A DNA stretch of 64,000 nt from the NCBI GenBank assembly GCA_024644405.1, contig JAHELC010000005.1, positions 62,001 to 126,000 on the forward strand, in the 5' to 3' direction. The translations under genes were made by a program, and so were the position numbers. This DNA comes from Nitrospinaceae bacterium. Its GTDB lineage: Bacteria > Nitrospinota > Nitrospinia > Nitrospinales > Nitrospinaceae. Below the pieces are notes generated by a model. It saw only the letters and a list, made by a program, of their open reading frames with translations. It made no database searches and was not told the origin of the DNA. Below are positions 13,565 to 31,322 of this stretch, in pieces (within the stretch, counting starts at the first letter, position 1; each line of letters opens with the position of its first letter).

Positions 13565-14590
<1,026 letters not shown>

Positions 14591-14612: not shown

Positions 14613-15368
14613 ATGAGAAAGATGCTCGTTGCCGGGAACTGGAAAATGAACAAAACCGTCCCGGAATCCCTGGAATTGATCCATGCTTTGATGGGGAAGT
14701 TAAACGATTCCTGTCCTGTGGAAGTGGTATTGATTCCTCCTTTCACGGCTTTGTATCCAGCGGCGGAGGCCTTGCGCGGGAGCCGTATTCAACTGGGGGC
14801 TCAAAATATTTCTCACTTGTCGAAGGGAGCAGTGACCGGGGAGATCTCCGGCACCCTGCTGATCTCGGTGGGATGCCGGTACGTGCTCGTCGGCCACTCT
14901 GAACGGCGAAACCTGTTTCAGGAAGATGATGCGATGATCAATCAGAAACTGAAAACCGCTTTGTCGGAAGGCCTCTATCCTATTTTGTGTGTGGGCGAGT
15001 CCTGGGAAGAACGGGAGGCCGGCAAGACGGAGAACATCATCGGCCATCAATTGAAAGCCGGTTTGGACGGTCTGACTCAAATGGAAATGAGAAAAATGAC
15101 CCTGGCCTACGAGCCGGTCTGGGCCATCGGTAGCGGAAAAAACGCGCAACCGGAACAGGTCCAGGAAATCCATGAAGCGATCCGCAATAATTTGAGCTCT
15201 CAGTATGAGCCAGCAGTGGCTAAAGACATCAGGATTGTTTACGGCGGCAGCGTGACTCCCGAAAACTGCTCTAACCTGATGGCGCAACCGGACGTCGACG
15301 GCGCGTTGGTCGGTGGGGCCAGTTTGGATGCCGATTCGTTTTATGCTATTATTAACGCCATTAAATAA
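14613..15368 (+). CDS. tpiA: Triosephosphate isomerase
   Basis: TpiA interconverts dihydroxyacetone phosphate and glyceraldehyde 3-phosphate. The 251-aa protein carries the N-terminal NWKMNK with the catalytic Lys, His in VGHSERR near residue 95, the catalytic Glu in AYEPVWAIGSGKNA near 167 (with loop 6), and the phosphate-binding YGGSV near 210. It lies between gap and secG in a tight plus-strand cluster, with gaps of 22 and 20 bases, and is probably expressed from the gap promoter. Confidence 0.98.
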   Translation: MRKMLVAGNWKMNKTVPESLELIHALMGKLNDSCPVEVVLIPPFTALYPAAEALRGSRIQLGAQNISHLSKGAVTGEISGTLLISVGCRYVLVGHSERRNLFQEDDAMINQKLKTALSEGLYPILCVGESWEEREAGKTENIIGHQLKAGLDGLTQMEMRKMTLAYEPVWAIGSGKNAQPEQVQEIHEAIRNNLSSQYEPAVAKDIRIVYGGSVTPENCSNLMAQPDVDGALVGGASLDADSFYAIINAIK

Positions 15369-24444: not shown

Positions 24445-25206
24445 ATGCAAATACTACTAGCGGCTTTGCTGATAACGATGTCTGGCGCTGCCCCTGTTGC
24501 GGCTCAAACCGGATCTGCGCGATCGCCTGTGGGTAATGAAGTGGGCCGGAACATGGTCCTGATTCCTGCGGGAAAATTTCAAAGAGGCTGTGATTCATTG
24601 GGACCGGAACACGGCGCGCCGGCGCATCCGGTGTACCTGGATGCGTTTATGATTGATATCTATGAAGTCACCAATGAACGCCTGGAAAAAGTCATGCCCG
24701 ACCATAAACTGCGGCGGAGCATGTCGTCTCACTGCGATAACTGCCCGGTCACTAAAATCACCTGGTACGAAGCGGCGGACTACTGTCACTTGATCGGCAA
24801 AGCCCTTCCCAGTGAGGCCCAATGGGAAAAGGCCACCGGGGCTGCCAGCGGATGCGAGTTTCCCTGGGGTCCGGAATTTGATCCGAAAAAGAAACAGGCT
24901 CGCGGCGGTTTGAAATTGAAAGACAAGGCCAGCCCGGTCGGCAGTTATCCTCCCAATAAATTCGGAATATACGATATGGGAGGCAATGTCTGGGAATGGG
25001 TTGCAGATTGGTACTCACCCCAGTATTATTTTCTGGAACCGCTTTATAATCCCCGAGGACCTTCCCGGGGGGTAATGAAAGTCCGGCGCGGCGGTGCCTG
25101 GTCGGACAGCATCAAAGCGATGAAATCCGGATACCGGGATTGGAGTTATCCTTTTTCCAGAAGTTACAGCGATATCGGTTTTCGCTGTGCCATCAATCTC
25201 AAATAA
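24445..25206 (+). CDS. Secreted SUMF1/FGE-fold protein, probably not a formylglycine generator
   Basis: A 253-aa protein with an N-terminal signal peptide (about 1-20, ending VAA-Q). The formylglycine-generating-enzyme fold shows in VLIPAGKFQRGCD, DAFMIDIYEVTNE, ITWYEAADYCHLIGKALPSE, MGGNVWEWVADWY, VRRGGAW and the ending GFRCA. The copper-binding Cys pair of genuine sulfatase-modifying enzymes, expected shortly before GFRCA, is absent, so a binding or structural role is more likely. Four Cys in its first half (RGCD, SHCDNCP, DYCH) may form disulfides. It precedes the LRR gene by two bases, and a paralogue is at 30567-31322. Confidence 0.85.
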   Translation: MQILLAALLITMSGAAPVAAQTGSARSPVGNEVGRNMVLIPAGKFQRGCDSLGPEHGAPAHPVYLDAFMIDIYEVTNERLEKVMPDHKLRRSMSSHCDNCPVTKITWYEAADYCHLIGKALPSEAQWEKATGAASGCEFPWGPEFDPKKKQARGGLKLKDKASPVGSYPPNKFGIYDMGGNVWEWVADWYSPQYYFLEPLYNPRGPSRGVMKVRRGGAWSDSIKAMKSGYRDWSYPFSRSYSDIGFRCAINLK

Positions 25207-25950: not shown

Positions 25951-26649
25951 TTATCTGGAATATCGTTCTTCCAGCCAGGGGTCGGCGGAATTGGAATAGC
26001 CGCGTTGTTCCCAGAAACCCAGCTCGTCTTCTTCGCGGAAGATGATTTCGCCGATCCATTTGGCTCCCTTCCACGCGTACAGTTGGGGAGTGATCATGCG
26101 CACCGGGCCGCCATGCTGTTTTTCGAGAGGCTTGCCTTCCCACTGGTGAACCAGCAGGACGTCATACTTCATGGCTTCTTCCAGGGGCAGGTTGGTGGAG
26201 TAGCCGTCGAAGGCCTTGATGTAAACAAACTTCGCCTCGGGTTGGACCTGGCAATAATCGGCGATGTCCGAGAAACGGACGCCCGCCCAATGATTGTCCA
26301 AACGACTCCAGGTGGTGACACAATGAAAATCGGAAACATCCTCAACCTGGGGAAATTTCATAAAGTGCTGCCAATTGAACATTTCAGGATTTTCAACCAA
26401 ACCGGAAATGGTGAGACTCCATTGGTCCAGCGGAATCTCCGGTTGAACGCCCAGGTCCAACACCGGCCATTTGCCGGTAGCGGTCTGACCGGGGGGAATT
26501 TGAGGCATGCCATCCCGGTTCAAGGGGCCTTCACCCATGGGCGCATCTCCGTCCCAGGATTTCTTTTCGGCCAATGATCTTTTGTATTGAATCATTGCCT
26601 CGCGGGATTTAATCCGCCGGATGTTGGGATTGGGTTTTGGAATATTCAT
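25951..26649 (-). CDS. Sulfite-oxidase-fold molybdopterin protein
   Basis: A 232-aa protein with the oxidoreductase molybdopterin-binding domain of the sulfite oxidase/MsrP family. The molybdenum-ligating Cys is C110 in DFHCVTTWS. Other conserved parts are WSLTISGLVENP, the substrate-side YIKAFDGYSTNLP and the C-terminal GGPVRMITPQLYAWKGAKWIGEI. It lacks a recognisable Tat signal and the haem domain of sulfite oxidase, so it is probably cytoplasmic with unknown substrate. Its start overlaps the end of the divergent pgk gene by four bases (ATGA), so both are made from one transcript. Confidence 0.88.
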   Translation of the reverse strand: MNIPKPNPNIRRIKSREAMIQYKRSLAEKKSWDGDAPMGEGPLNRDGMPQIPPGQTATGKWPVLDLGVQPEIPLDQWSLTISGLVENPEMFNWQHFMKFPQVEDVSDFHCVTTWSRLDNHWAGVRFSDIADYCQVQPEAKFVYIKAFDGYSTNLPLEEAMKYDVLLVHQWEGKPLEKQHGGPVRMITPQLYAWKGAKWIGEIIFREEDELGFWEQRGYSNSADPWLEERYSR

Positions 26650-28214
26650 TGCGATGAAGTCGTTTCCAGTAGTATTGCCGTTCCCGGAAGATAGGATTCA
26701 ACCGGAGACTTCCCATCGTCTTTCAGGTATTCCTCCAAAAATTCAAGCGCCGCGCCACCCCCTGTGGAAACGAAGAAGTTGGAGGAAAAATAGTTGAAGA
26801 GGGTGTATGTATCGTCAACATTGAAATCGATGGAGATCAAATCCGGGTTGATGGGTCGGTTCAACTGCTGCACCACCTGTTTGCGTATCAGGTTTTTGAG
26901 TTCCTCAATATTGATCTTGTTTAAAATAGCCGCAGAATCCCCTCCGCCAATGACCACGGAAAGGTCGGGGTCTACAATTGCCGCGGCAAACAGAACCTGG
27001 GCCAGTTTGACCGAGCCTTCGGCATAGTGATCGCACTTGGGGTGATCATAGGCACCCAGGGGCCCGTTCCAGAACACCTGCTTGATCTTTCCTTTTTGCA
27101 GGATATTTTTGGAGTAATTGACGATTGTTTTCGGTCCCAGGTCCAGCTGAAAATCCCGTGAAAAGTCAGGCTCCGACTGGATGGTATACTCGGTTTCGAA
27201 ATAATCCCGGGTAATTTTGAAATCATCGGGAAAAATGATCTGGACGTTTTTATCCTGCGCCAGGGTCAGAATTTCATGGGCCAGTTTAATTTCATTGAGC
27301 AAATCATGGCATTCTTCCTCACTCTTGTTTTCGTACAATTTCGTGGGGATATCCTTCAGGGATAGGGAATCAATGATCTTTTCAAATTTTCGACCCAGAA
27401 GAAAAGCGTTCACCATCCGGCCGCCGATAAAGATTAGCTTGATTTTTGACTCTACAAACTGCTTTAATATACCGATTTTGTCTGCGATTTTGGCTCCCCC
27501 GGCAATCAGGGCAGTTTGTTCCGGATGGTCGAGCACACGCTTACCCAATTGTCCCAGCTGGATAATCTCTTCATGAAGCAAGCTTCCTGCAACCGCCAGC
27601 TTACCGGCCTTGCGCATGATTTGAGGCAGGAACTTGATACTTTTGGTGACCCGGTGACTGCATCCAAAAGCGCAATTGATAAAAACGTCAGAAATTTTGC
27701 CCAATTCCTCAATAAATTCCTGGCGATAGGTCTCCGGATTGCGAGGGTCCAGCAAATACCGGAGGTTGGGCAAAAACTTGATTCCGCCCGCTGGCAACTG
27801 GTGGTTGAAGCAGATTTCCAGGGAATTTTTAAAGTTGGAGTCGGTAATTTCCGGCGGAAAAATAGTGTAGGTATCGCCGTATAGTTTTCGGATTAGGGTG
27901 TCAAAATGAGAGCAGACAAACTGGATATTGAAAATACCGTCCCACCCATGGTGGTCCAGCTTTTTGTGGGGACGTCCCAAGTGGGAACCGATAACGATTC
28001 GGCAGTTCCCCTCAGTCAACTCATGAATTCTTTTAAAGGTCAGATCCAGGAAACGTCGAATGCGGGTATCGTCGCCGACGCGATACCCCTTGGGGGTCGA
28101 AACGAGCGGGACATTGAAATCAACGCGAATGAAAATGGTTTTGTTGATCAGGTCTTCTGGACGCAAATCTTCCAATCGAGGCAATCTTAATTGATTTTCC
28201 GAAATGGCATCCAT
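26646..28214 (-). CDS. pgk: Divergent, enlarged phosphoglycerate kinase
   Basis: A 522-aa member of the PGK family, over 100 residues longer than usual. Family motifs are recognisable: FIRVDFNVP (29-36), SHLGRP (77-82), DTRIRRFLD, IAGGAKIADKIGIL (near 238), DLGPKT, FWNGPLGAYDH, GGGDSAA and STGGGAALEFLEE. Extra sequence lies near 280-345 and as about 30 added residues between GGGDSAA and STGGGAA. The highly conserved NDAFG is NCAFG here (Asp to Cys at 181). It may still make ATP and 3-phosphoglycerate, since no pgk sits in the gap-tpiA operon, or it may be a specialised paralogue. It is translationally coupled to the sulfite-oxidase-fold gene. Confidence 0.88.
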   Translation of the reverse strand: MDAISENQLRLPRLEDLRPEDLINKTIFIRVDFNVPLVSTPKGYRVGDDTRIRRFLDLTFKRIHELTEGNCRIVIGSHLGRPHKKLDHHGWDGIFNIQFVCSHFDTLIRKLYGDTYTIFPPEITDSNFKNSLEICFNHQLPAGGIKFLPNLRYLLDPRNPETYRQEFIEELGKISDVFINCAFGCSHRVTKSIKFLPQIMRKAGKLAVAGSLLHEEIIQLGQLGKRVLDHPEQTALIAGGAKIADKIGILKQFVESKIKLIFIGGRMVNAFLLGRKFEKIIDSLSLKDIPTKLYENKSEEECHDLLNEIKLAHEILTLAQDKNVQIIFPDDFKITRDYFETEYTIQSEPDFSRDFQLDLGPKTIVNYSKNILQKGKIKQVFWNGPLGAYDHPKCDHYAEGSVKLAQVLFAAAIVDPDLSVVIGGGDSAAILNKINIEELKNLIRKQVVQQLNRPINPDLISIDFNVDDTYTLFNYFSSNFFVSTGGGAALEFLEEYLKDDGKSPVESYLPGTAILLETTSSQ

Positions 28215-28433: not shown

Positions 28434-30533
28434 ATGTCGAAAATAAACAGGAAACTGCTGATCAACGTGGACCAGCCGGAAGAATGCCGGGCCGTGGTGA
28501 TCGAAAACGGCAAGCTTGATGAGATTATTGTAGAACACTCTTCCCAGGAATTGGTTAAAGGCAATATTTACCTGGGGGTCGTGACCCGGGTTGAACCCTC
28601 CATCGAAGCCGCCTTTGTGGATATTGGCAAGAAAAAGTACGGTTTTCTTCCATTCAAAGATGTTTTGCCGGAATCCTACCTGCAAACGGGTGAGAGAAAA
28701 GCCAGAACCCGAATCCAGGATGTCATGGTGCGGGGACAAAGATTGCTGGTGCAAGTCGTCAAGGAAAGCCGCGACGCCAAAGGCCCTTCGCTAACCAACG
28801 CAGTGACCATTCCCGGGCGATTCCTGGTGTTGATGGTTTCCAGTGATTCCAGCGGAATTTCCCGGAAAATCGAAGATGAGTCGGAGCGAAAAAAAATCAA
28901 GCAACTGATGTCTGATTTGGGCGTTCCGGCCAGCATGGGGGTGATTATCCGAACTGCCGGCGTGGGCCGGACCAAAACCGAACTTCAAAAGGATATCCAG
29001 GCCTTGCTTAAAATCTGGGAAACCATCGAACAGCAATTCGGAGACCCGGATACCAAGGCGCCCAGTCTTTTATATGAAGGACCGGATATGGTGGTGCGTA
29101 CTGTGCGGGATCATTTCTCCAATGATATGACGGAAGTCCTCGTTGACAGTAAGGAGTCTTTTGATGCCCTTAATGAATTCATGAAGCTGGTGATGCCCAG
29201 GATGCGTAACCGCATCAAGTTTTATCAGGATACCAAGCCGCTTTTCTCTCAGTACAACGTTGAAGAACAAATTGAAAGTATTTACAAACGCAGGGTTGAA
29301 TTACCCTCCGGCGGCTCGATTGTGATTGACGTGGGTGAGGCGATGGTCTCGATCGACGTCAACTCCGGAAGAACCACCGGCGCCAGCGCACTGGAGGAAA
29401 CGGCGATCAAAACCAACCTGGAGGCCGCTGAGGAGATTACCCGGCAACTCCGGTTGCGTGACTTGGGGGGATTGATCGTTATCGATTTTATCGATATGTT
29501 TCAAAAGAAAAACAAGGCCCTGTTGGAAAAACAGGTGAAGCTGAGCTGCAAGCGGGACAGAGCGAGGGTCAATATTTCCAGGATTTCACGGTTTGGACTT
29601 CTGGAAATGTCGCGACAACGTTTAGCCCCACCCGTTAAGGAAGGATTTTTTTCGAATTGTCAGCATTGCGGAGGAACGGGTCATGTCAAAACCGACAGCT
29701 CGGCCGCTTTAAGTGTAATCCGAAAAATCCAGGAACATCTGTCTGCGGGAAATGTGAAAGTTTTGCAGGTCAGGATTTCCACGCAGGTGGCCAGTTATCT
29801 ATTAAATAACAAAATGAAAAGTCTGCTCGAGCTGGAAGAAAAGAACGGGGTTGATATTCTCTTTGAAAGCCAGGATTACTTTCCCTTTGAAAACTTTTCA
29901 TTTACTGTGCTGGAACGTAAAAAAGAAGAGGATAAGGTCATCGAGCAAAAATCCAGTATTCAAAGAGATTTGAAACCGGAAGGAGAAGAAGCCCAAGAAG
30001 AAAAGAGTGACAAGCGCAGTCGAGGTCGCCGACCGTCGTCCGGCCGGGGACGTGGGCGTAGACCTTCTTCAGCCGCACGCGAACGTAAAAAGGAAGAAGA
30101 AAAAACCACTGGGCAGGAAACCAGTATTCAAAAAGACCTGAAACCGGAGGGAACAGCTGGCAAGGAAGGAGAGGGTGAGAAAGACAGTCGTGTTCGCCGA
30201 CCGTCGTCCGGACGAGGCCGGGGTCGCAGACCCGGCGGCCGACCCGGAACAAAAAGGCCTGCGCGTTCCCCAAGAAACAGGGCCCGGAACACGTCGCGAA
30301 CCCAGACGGGTGCTTCACCGGGAGCTCAGAATAAATCAAGTTCCGCTGATTCTCCCAGAGGGAATACCACCTTGGCAAAGGATTCCGGTGACGAGACTCC
30401 ACCCCCTCAATCCCAGTCGAAGCCAGAAACGGAATCGACTGAAGAGCGGCAACCCATGGAAAACGTCTCCCGGTTACATGAAATGTTTGTAAAAAATCAG
30501 CCTCCTTTTGGCCCCGGTCCTAATCGGAAATGA
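28434..30533 (+). CDS. Ribonuclease E/G family endoribonuclease
   Basis: A single-strand endoribonuclease for rRNA maturation and mRNA decay. The 699-aa protein has an S1-type RNA-binding domain (about 40-125), then the DNase I-like catalytic domain with metal ligands D308 (VSIDVNSGR) and D351 (IDFIDMF). These are spaced 43 residues apart, as are D303 and D346 of E. coli RNase E. A zinc-link-like CQHCGGTG follows near 408. After about residue 490 comes a basic, low-complexity tail of two 56-residue repeats (RRPSSGRGRGRRP), then a Pro/Ser/Thr-rich end. The tail is probably disordered and RNA- or protein-binding. rne versus rng cannot be decided from the sequence alone. Confidence 0.94.
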   Translation: MSKINRKLLINVDQPEECRAVVIENGKLDEIIVEHSSQELVKGNIYLGVVTRVEPSIEAAFVDIGKKKYGFLPFKDVLPESYLQTGERKARTRIQDVMVRGQRLLVQVVKESRDAKGPSLTNAVTIPGRFLVLMVSSDSSGISRKIEDESERKKIKQLMSDLGVPASMGVIIRTAGVGRTKTELQKDIQALLKIWETIEQQFGDPDTKAPSLLYEGPDMVVRTVRDHFSNDMTEVLVDSKESFDALNEFMKLVMPRMRNRIKFYQDTKPLFSQYNVEEQIESIYKRRVELPSGGSIVIDVGEAMVSIDVNSGRTTGASALEETAIKTNLEAAEEITRQLRLRDLGGLIVIDFIDMFQKKNKALLEKQVKLSCKRDRARVNISRISRFGLLEMSRQRLAPPVKEGFFSNCQHCGGTGHVKTDSSAALSVIRKIQEHLSAGNVKVLQVRISTQVASYLLNNKMKSLLELEEKNGVDILFESQDYFPFENFSFTVLERKKEEDKVIEQKSSIQRDLKPEGEEAQEEKSDKRSRGRRPSSGRGRGRRPSSAARERKKEEEKTTGQETSIQKDLKPEGTAGKEGEGEKDSRVRRPSSGRGRGRRPGGRPGTKRPARSPRNRARNTSRTQTGASPGAQNKSSSADSPRGNTTLAKDSGDETPPPQSQSKPETESTEERQPMENVSRLHEMFVKNQPPFGPGPNRK
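29913..30232 (+). repeat. In-gene tandem duplication, 168-base period
   Basis: Within the RNase E/G gene, GAACGTAAAAA at 29913 recurs at 30081, CGCCGACCGTCGTCCGG at 30027 recurs at 30195, and AGACC near 30060 recurs near 30228. The offset is 168 bases throughout, with no insertions or deletions, encoding two 56-residue units (ERKKEE...SSIQRDLKPEG...RRPSSGRGRGRRP). The second copy is nearly complete (1.9 copies). Confidence 0.88.
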
Positions 30534-30566: not shown

Positions 30567-31322
30567 TCAGGAATTGGATTTTGAAGACGGGGAGGCGGAC
30601 CGGGCGCATCGAAATCCCGTATCCCATGATCTCATTTGGGGAGGAGCGAAATTCCGGTAGGGAAGGAGTGCAAACTCTTTCAAAAATCCATGCTCTCTTT
30701 TATTGATGGCGCCACCCCGGATCACTTTATATTTTTTCCCGAAGTTGGGGTCCTTGAAAGAAGAGCCTTGATAGGGTTGATACCAGCTGGCGGTCCATTC
30801 GGATACATTGCCATTTAAATCGTATACCCCGAACTCGCTGAAGTCCCGTGTTTGTTTGCCGGGGGGTTGTACGGTTTTGCCGAAGTTGGCGTTTTCCCGC
30901 TTGAATTCATTTCCCCAGACGTACAGGTTTCCTTCCAGACCTCGCGCGGCTTTTTCCCATTCGGATTCCGTGGGTAATCGTTTACCCAACCATAAGCAAT
31001 AGGCGTCCGCTTCAAACCAGGAAACACCCTGAACCGGGTGGGTGAGGCGGCCTTCGGAATACCGGGCCTGGGGTTTGAAGCTTAAAAACTCCCCGTAACT
31101 GACCTCATGGATATCCATATAAAATGCCTTCACATTGATTTCCTGCTGAGGCTGGGCATTTTTGCTGGAAGTGCGGTCTGAAATAAATGAAGGGACTTCT
31201 GCAGAAGGATTCAGGCCCAGAGTGAATGGACCGGCCGGAATCAAAACCATATCGGTTTCCTGTTCGATGGGTTCGGCGCAGGCCGAGCACGCAACCAGGA
31301 GCAGGAGTATCAGCCGTTTCAA
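30567..31322 (-). CDS. SUMF1/FGE-fold lipoprotein
   Basis: A 251-aa protein with a short signal and lipobox (LVAC or CSAC around residues 9-15), so it is probably lipid-anchored in the periplasm. The fold is clear: VLIPAGPFTLGLN, FYMDIHEVSYGEFL, VQGVSWFEADAYCLWLGKRLPTESEWEKAARG, YDLNGNVSEWTASWY, VIRGG and TGFRCARS. The active-site Cys pair of formylglycine-generating enzymes is missing. It is a paralogue of 24445-25206. Its start overlaps the stop of the upstream HmuY-like gene by four bases, so the two form an operon. It faces the RNase E/G gene convergently with a 33-base gap. Confidence 0.88.
   Translation of the reverse strand: MKRLILLLLVACSACAEPIEQETDMVLIPAGPFTLGLNPSAEVPSFISDRTSSKNAQPQQEINVKAFYMDIHEVSYGEFLSFKPQARYSEGRLTHPVQGVSWFEADAYCLWLGKRLPTESEWEKAARGLEGNLYVWGNEFKRENANFGKTVQPPGKQTRDFSEFGVYDLNGNVSEWTASWYQPYQGSSFKDPNFGKKYKVIRGGAINKREHGFLKEFALLPYRNFAPPQMRSWDTGFRCARSASPSSKSNS

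Follow-up and report, generated by a model that had tools for sequence, protein, structure and literature searches.

Does the oversized phosphoglycerate kinase (PGK) gene that lies away from the glycolytic operon of a Nitrospinaceae bacterium encode the only PGK of this organism, remodelled and moved, or a specialised kinase that coexists with a standard one elsewhere in the genome? Both answers had been put forward in a sequence-only reading of the 64,000-nucleotide stretch of contig JAHELC010000005.1 (assembly GCA_024644405.1) that carries the gene, and which we refer to as the window.

The enlarged pgk and its surroundings

The pgk gene (26646–28214, minus strand) is an intact open reading frame with an ATG start and a TGA stop, and its product of 522 aa is indeed long against the usual length of about 390–415 aa from which the question started (the canonical PGKs that we compared have 387–419 aa). 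The protein matches PF00162 with 206 bits (gathering score 27; E-value 1.2e-60) over residues 21–494 and is the sole match to this family in the genome. It scores 170.6 bits against the NCBIfam equivalog for the bifunctional PGK/TIM protein (NF010569; cut-off 883), with the PGK part only. Compared with relatives at 85–90% identity, Ka is 0.05–0.10 and Ks is 0.8 or more (about 0.9), and Ka/Ks is about 0.06 versus the relatives in the genus; Ka far below Ks among close relatives points to purifying selection.

As had been read from the sequence, the operon in which a pgk would be looked for has none: gap (13574–14590, plus strand), the only GAPDH gene in the genome, is followed directly by tpiA (14613–15368, plus strand). 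We compared this arrangement across the phylum, using a sample of 77 Nitrospinota genomes in which families f1–f4 make up the order Nitrospinales, f5 and f6 are neighbouring families of the same class, and f7–f9 are sister families, also of the same class. The gene pgk lies between gap and tpi in all eight f7–f9 loci, whereas gap adjoins tpi without pgk in the window and in 7/7 genomes examined from the clade with the enlarged form (f1, f2, f3, f5 and f6). This contrast indicates that pgk was lost from the operon in the clade, which depends instead on a remodelled gene at another locus.

A ribonuclease G-like gene, rng (28434–30533, plus strand; named from sequence), is the divergent neighbour of pgk, and is found divergently beside the enlarged pgk in most Nitrospinales members with enough flanking sequence; it is farther off or not seen in some f3 and f4 loci, and in f5 and f6 it was not found next to pgk. 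On the other side, a gene for a molybdopterin-binding oxidoreductase-domain protein (25951–26649, minus strand; PF00174) shares an ATGA overlap with pgk. The overlap, noted earlier as a coupling to a sulfite-oxidase-fold gene, is real, but the link it implied is weak: the two genes overlap only in the closest relatives of the window (L032–L034, L036 and L068), and the molybdopterin-domain gene is absent beside pgk in L035 and farther away in L042. We therefore rejected a functional link between the two proteins as specific to one lineage (the genus of the window and near relatives). Two similar-looking open reading frames resembling formylglycine-generating enzymes (again named from sequence) flank the pgk region at 24445–25206 (plus strand) and 30567–31322 (minus strand), and the latter is conserved near rng in relatives.

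Copy number and distribution

A second pgk had been proposed as the thing to look for in the complete genome, and the genome-wide search (2.98 Mb in 40 contigs, 95.8% complete) returned one PGK and one GAPDH. Given the pattern across the clade, it is unlikely that a second PGK was missed at this completeness. The enlarged PGK, with Cys for Asp in its NDAFG motif, was found in 54 of the 77 Nitrospinota genomes (E below 1e-70), all of them in f1–f4, f5 or f6, and every full-length PGK found in Nitrospinales is of the enlarged form. Eight genomes of f7–f9 carry a canonical PGK (about 397 aa, 515–535 bits). The Nitrospinales members without a PGK match are mostly 57–85% complete, and weak PGK matches below the cut-off were seen in G015 and G036. 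The latter (C96), a 94% complete member, has no full PGK and only its sub-cutoff match, probably because of an assembly gap. Most of the named relatives, at 58–90% identity, are MAGs of Nitrospina or Nitrospinaceae (from a single-protein query, which returned close relatives only). In the open-licence literature searched we found no paper that describes the enlarged form in Nitrospinota.

Only the two f6 genomes hold additional PGK-like genes. In G062, a second protein of 432 aa (L077:1444–2739, minus strand) keeps NDAFG and has lost the His-Arg pair that binds 3-phosphoglycerate (3PG); it has relatives outside the phylum in G416 and G464. Proteins of this type are PF00162 members like the enlarged PGK, and L077 also has LPN in place of LEN, but they differ from it in keeping NDAFG, in their length (432–436 aa), in their position elsewhere in the tree and, for L077, in lacking the His-Arg 3PG residues. 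In G063, a further PGK-like open reading frame of ~548 aa (L082:4733–6376, plus strand) has Ser at the position of the NDAFG Asp; other frames on this contig resemble pyruvate kinase and glycogen phosphorylase by sequence, and the PGK-like frame may be foreign, G063 being 6% contaminated.

These two different genes are what speaks for a specialised PGK-like kinase alongside a standard PGK encoded at another locus. Within the order, this proposal is contradicted: apart from the sub-cutoff matches in G015 and G036, there is no second PGK in the window genome or in Nitrospinales, and the f6 extras are themselves non-canonical, L077 being without the 3PG-site pair. We regard coexistence as very improbable. 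The other proposal, that the only PGK was remodelled and moved, is supported by the single PGK, by the same form across the order, and by the loss of pgk from the gap–tpiA operon relative to the sister families.

Active site and predicted structure

The enlarged PGK shares 25–38% identity with canonical bacterial PGKs and, by alignment, about 128 of its residues are insertions or extensions relative to them, in agreement with the large inserts first reported. The largest, of 39 aa, lies near the C-terminus between the GGGDSAA helix and STGGGA (residues 439–477; 26784–26900, minus strand), and the AlphaFold2 model, built on an 18-sequence alignment, places helices at 436–448 and 466–475 in this region. 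Two C-domain inserts (residues 279–288 and 298–306; 27297–27380, minus strand) are mostly helical in the model. The model has a pLDDT of 82 and a pTM of 0.82, with low confidence at 80–94, 186–190 and the C-terminus, two of these three parts being in substrate-site loops. Its fold is the two-domain PGK fold: among the 50 PDB matches listed, all are PGKs (best E-value 9e-24 and, by target length, TM values reaching 0.82), and the model matches the fold of canonical bacterial PGKs, for which there are structures such as those from T. maritima (1vpe) and G. stearothermophilus (1php), and with which the published 3PG, Mg-nucleotide and hinge residues are shared. The top structural match is the T. 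brucei PGK (13pk). Trypanosomatid PGKA, with its 80-aa N-terminal insertion (PMC7729029), is likewise a PGK that owes its size to sequence inserted inside the fold; there the addition forms a single block in the N-terminal half, whereas the window PGK has many inserts, the largest near the C-terminus, and altered active-site motifs as well. The inserts would be structural or regulatory.

The 3PG-site residues D32, N34, R51, H78, R81, R152 and R188 are present and all fixed across the clade; R51 is the counterpart of R38, which we take to be a residue of the 3PG basic patch. Ligands of 3PG and nucleotide were listed from PMC7729029, and under the ligand numbering D23, N25, H62, R65, R122 and R170 those for 3PG are kept in the enlarged PGK. 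Present too are the Mg-nucleotide ligands K242 and K246 (for the Lys of GGxK), N383 (N316), G423–D426 (GGGD) and S427, and the Glu positions of helix 7 are retained. Of the published ligands of 3PG, nucleotide and Mg2+ that we checked, all are therefore retained except the ribose-contact Glu, which is Asp, so that the substrate and nucleotide loops are kept as the first reading had it.

Seven positions differ in a near-fixed manner between 24 enlarged and 23 canonical sequences, including Pro for Glu at 149, Cys for Asp at 181, Ala for Val at 388 and Asp for Glu at 390. Pro149 (codon 27768–27770, minus strand) replaces the Glu of LEN(L/V)RF (P in 24/24 enlarged, E in 23/23 canonical), which gives LPN for LEN. 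Residues 388 and 390 align with the Bacillus-type residues 321 and 323, located beside the adenine and in contact with the ribose (PMC7729029). Asp390 (codon 27045–27047, minus strand) stands in place of the ribose-contact Glu (D in 24/24 versus E in 23/23); the paper that gives the position calls residue 323 Asp, and the canonical sequences aligned here carry Glu. The change from Glu to Asp at this contact is chemically conservative and a soft criterion.

Cys181 (codon 27672–27674, minus strand) replaces the Asp of NDAFG, which corresponds to human D164 by the motif and by the mutagenic primer of PMC3279470 that reads through it. The column holds Asp in 17/17 and 23/23 canonical sequences in two comparisons and Cys in 26/26 enlarged ones, so an alignment slip, the error that could have produced the reported NCAFG, is ruled out. 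The Asp is conserved but is no ligand, and Cys181 is the mark of a variant rather than of a non-member. A metal or disulfide site formed by C181 and C185 was considered and dropped, C185 not being conserved.

In human PGK1, D164 is at the end of an N-domain strand and contacts the backbone of helix 7 residues 188–190, and in the D164V mutant kcat falls nearly 20-fold, the Km for 3PG rises about six-fold and the protein is less stable (PMC3279470). This severe impairment, together with the fixed replacements in NDAFG, in LEN and at the ribose contact, would fit a protein that has lost PGK activity and has taken another role (regulatory, or as a different kinase), the cell then making 1,3-BPG by another route or doing without it. 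By analogy, the human mutant argues against activity, but its substitution is Val rather than Cys and is set in different surroundings: ahead of helix 7, the enlarged form has a four-residue insert (201–204), and the helix starts with LLxEE versus (L/M)xKE in canonical PGKs. The remodelled segment before helix 7, together with the change from LEN to LPN, may take over the role of the NDAFG Asp in holding the start of this interdomain helix. Against a loss of activity stand the retained ligands, the purifying selection on the gene, and a clade that has no other PGK yet keeps its GAPDH; we consider such a loss very improbable. The single GAPDH needs a PGK partner, which supports the enlarged PGK as the working enzyme.

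Origin, function and meaning

In a quick tree, the enlarged PGKs form one branch (support 100) on a stem of 2.38 changes per column, and the f5 and f6 sequences fall outside those of Nitrospinales within it, as expected under vertical descent. How the form arose is a separate matter. The length of the stem, the location outside the gap–tpi operon and the identities (on average 28.9% to canonical Nitrospinota PGKs versus 31.2% to other bacterial PGKs, hence no closer to those of the own phylum) favour horizontal transfer from an unsampled lineage, with displacement of the native operon copy. On the other hand, a tree that joins the enlarged and the canonical Nitrospinota PGKs is not rejected by the AU test (p = 0.128), and no donor was found with the A1 profile in roughly 900 genomes outside the phylum (samples of about 310, 145, 100 and 391, which may overlap, the last without a positive control), save two contaminant contigs, nor in plasmids (searched with the window protein P0001) or viral contigs (A1 profile). 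The two contigs are in MAGs labelled Opitutia (L060) and Neomarinimicrobiota (L058), and we ascribe them to binning contamination because both genomes also hold a canonical PGK. Low-scoring outside PGKs (G418, G556, G464 and others) were rejected as relatives (at most 159 bits with A1 versus 643–937 for the clade). We give transfer slightly less than an even chance; it concerns the origin only and is compatible with the enlarged PGK being the working enzyme. A further reading combines two steps: the ancestor of this nitrite-oxidising clade had its native enzyme replaced by a PGK of an unsampled donor, and the modified nucleotide pocket of the newcomer (Ala for Val, Asp for Glu, and the inserts) alters nucleotide preference or regulation for a mainly gluconeogenic role. 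This combination seems to us unlikely.

Whichever the origin, we hold with good confidence that the enlarged PGK is the sole and most likely active PGK of this organism and of a clade made up of Nitrospinales, which are marine nitrite-oxidising bacteria, and the neighbouring families f5 and f6. Their common ancestor would have lost the ordinary pgk from its gap–pgk–tpiA operon and come to depend on a PGK gene at another locus, enlarged and strongly altered, which has been inherited vertically since. The enzyme would catalyse 3PG + ATP <-> 1,3-BPG + ADP, mostly in the gluconeogenic direction because CO2 fixation in these bacteria runs through the reductive TCA cycle. All genes of gluconeogenesis, together with glycogen storage, are reported in the N. 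gracilis genome paper (PMC3578206), and the reductive TCA cycle and gluconeogenesis are conserved in the phylum, to which the same source assigns the most abundant nitrite oxidisers known from the sea (PMC10839748).

Judged from the sequences, then, the ordinary PGK reaction is most likely carried out here by an unusual variant found throughout the clade. Few central enzymes are as conserved as PGK, and a clade that lives on a strongly remodelled PGK, its operon copy lost, offers an experiment of nature on which of the conserved positions are truly needed. The NDAFG Asp is a case in point: a mutation at this position cripples the human enzyme, yet here evolution seems to have arrived at a working protein that accommodates the change to Cys.
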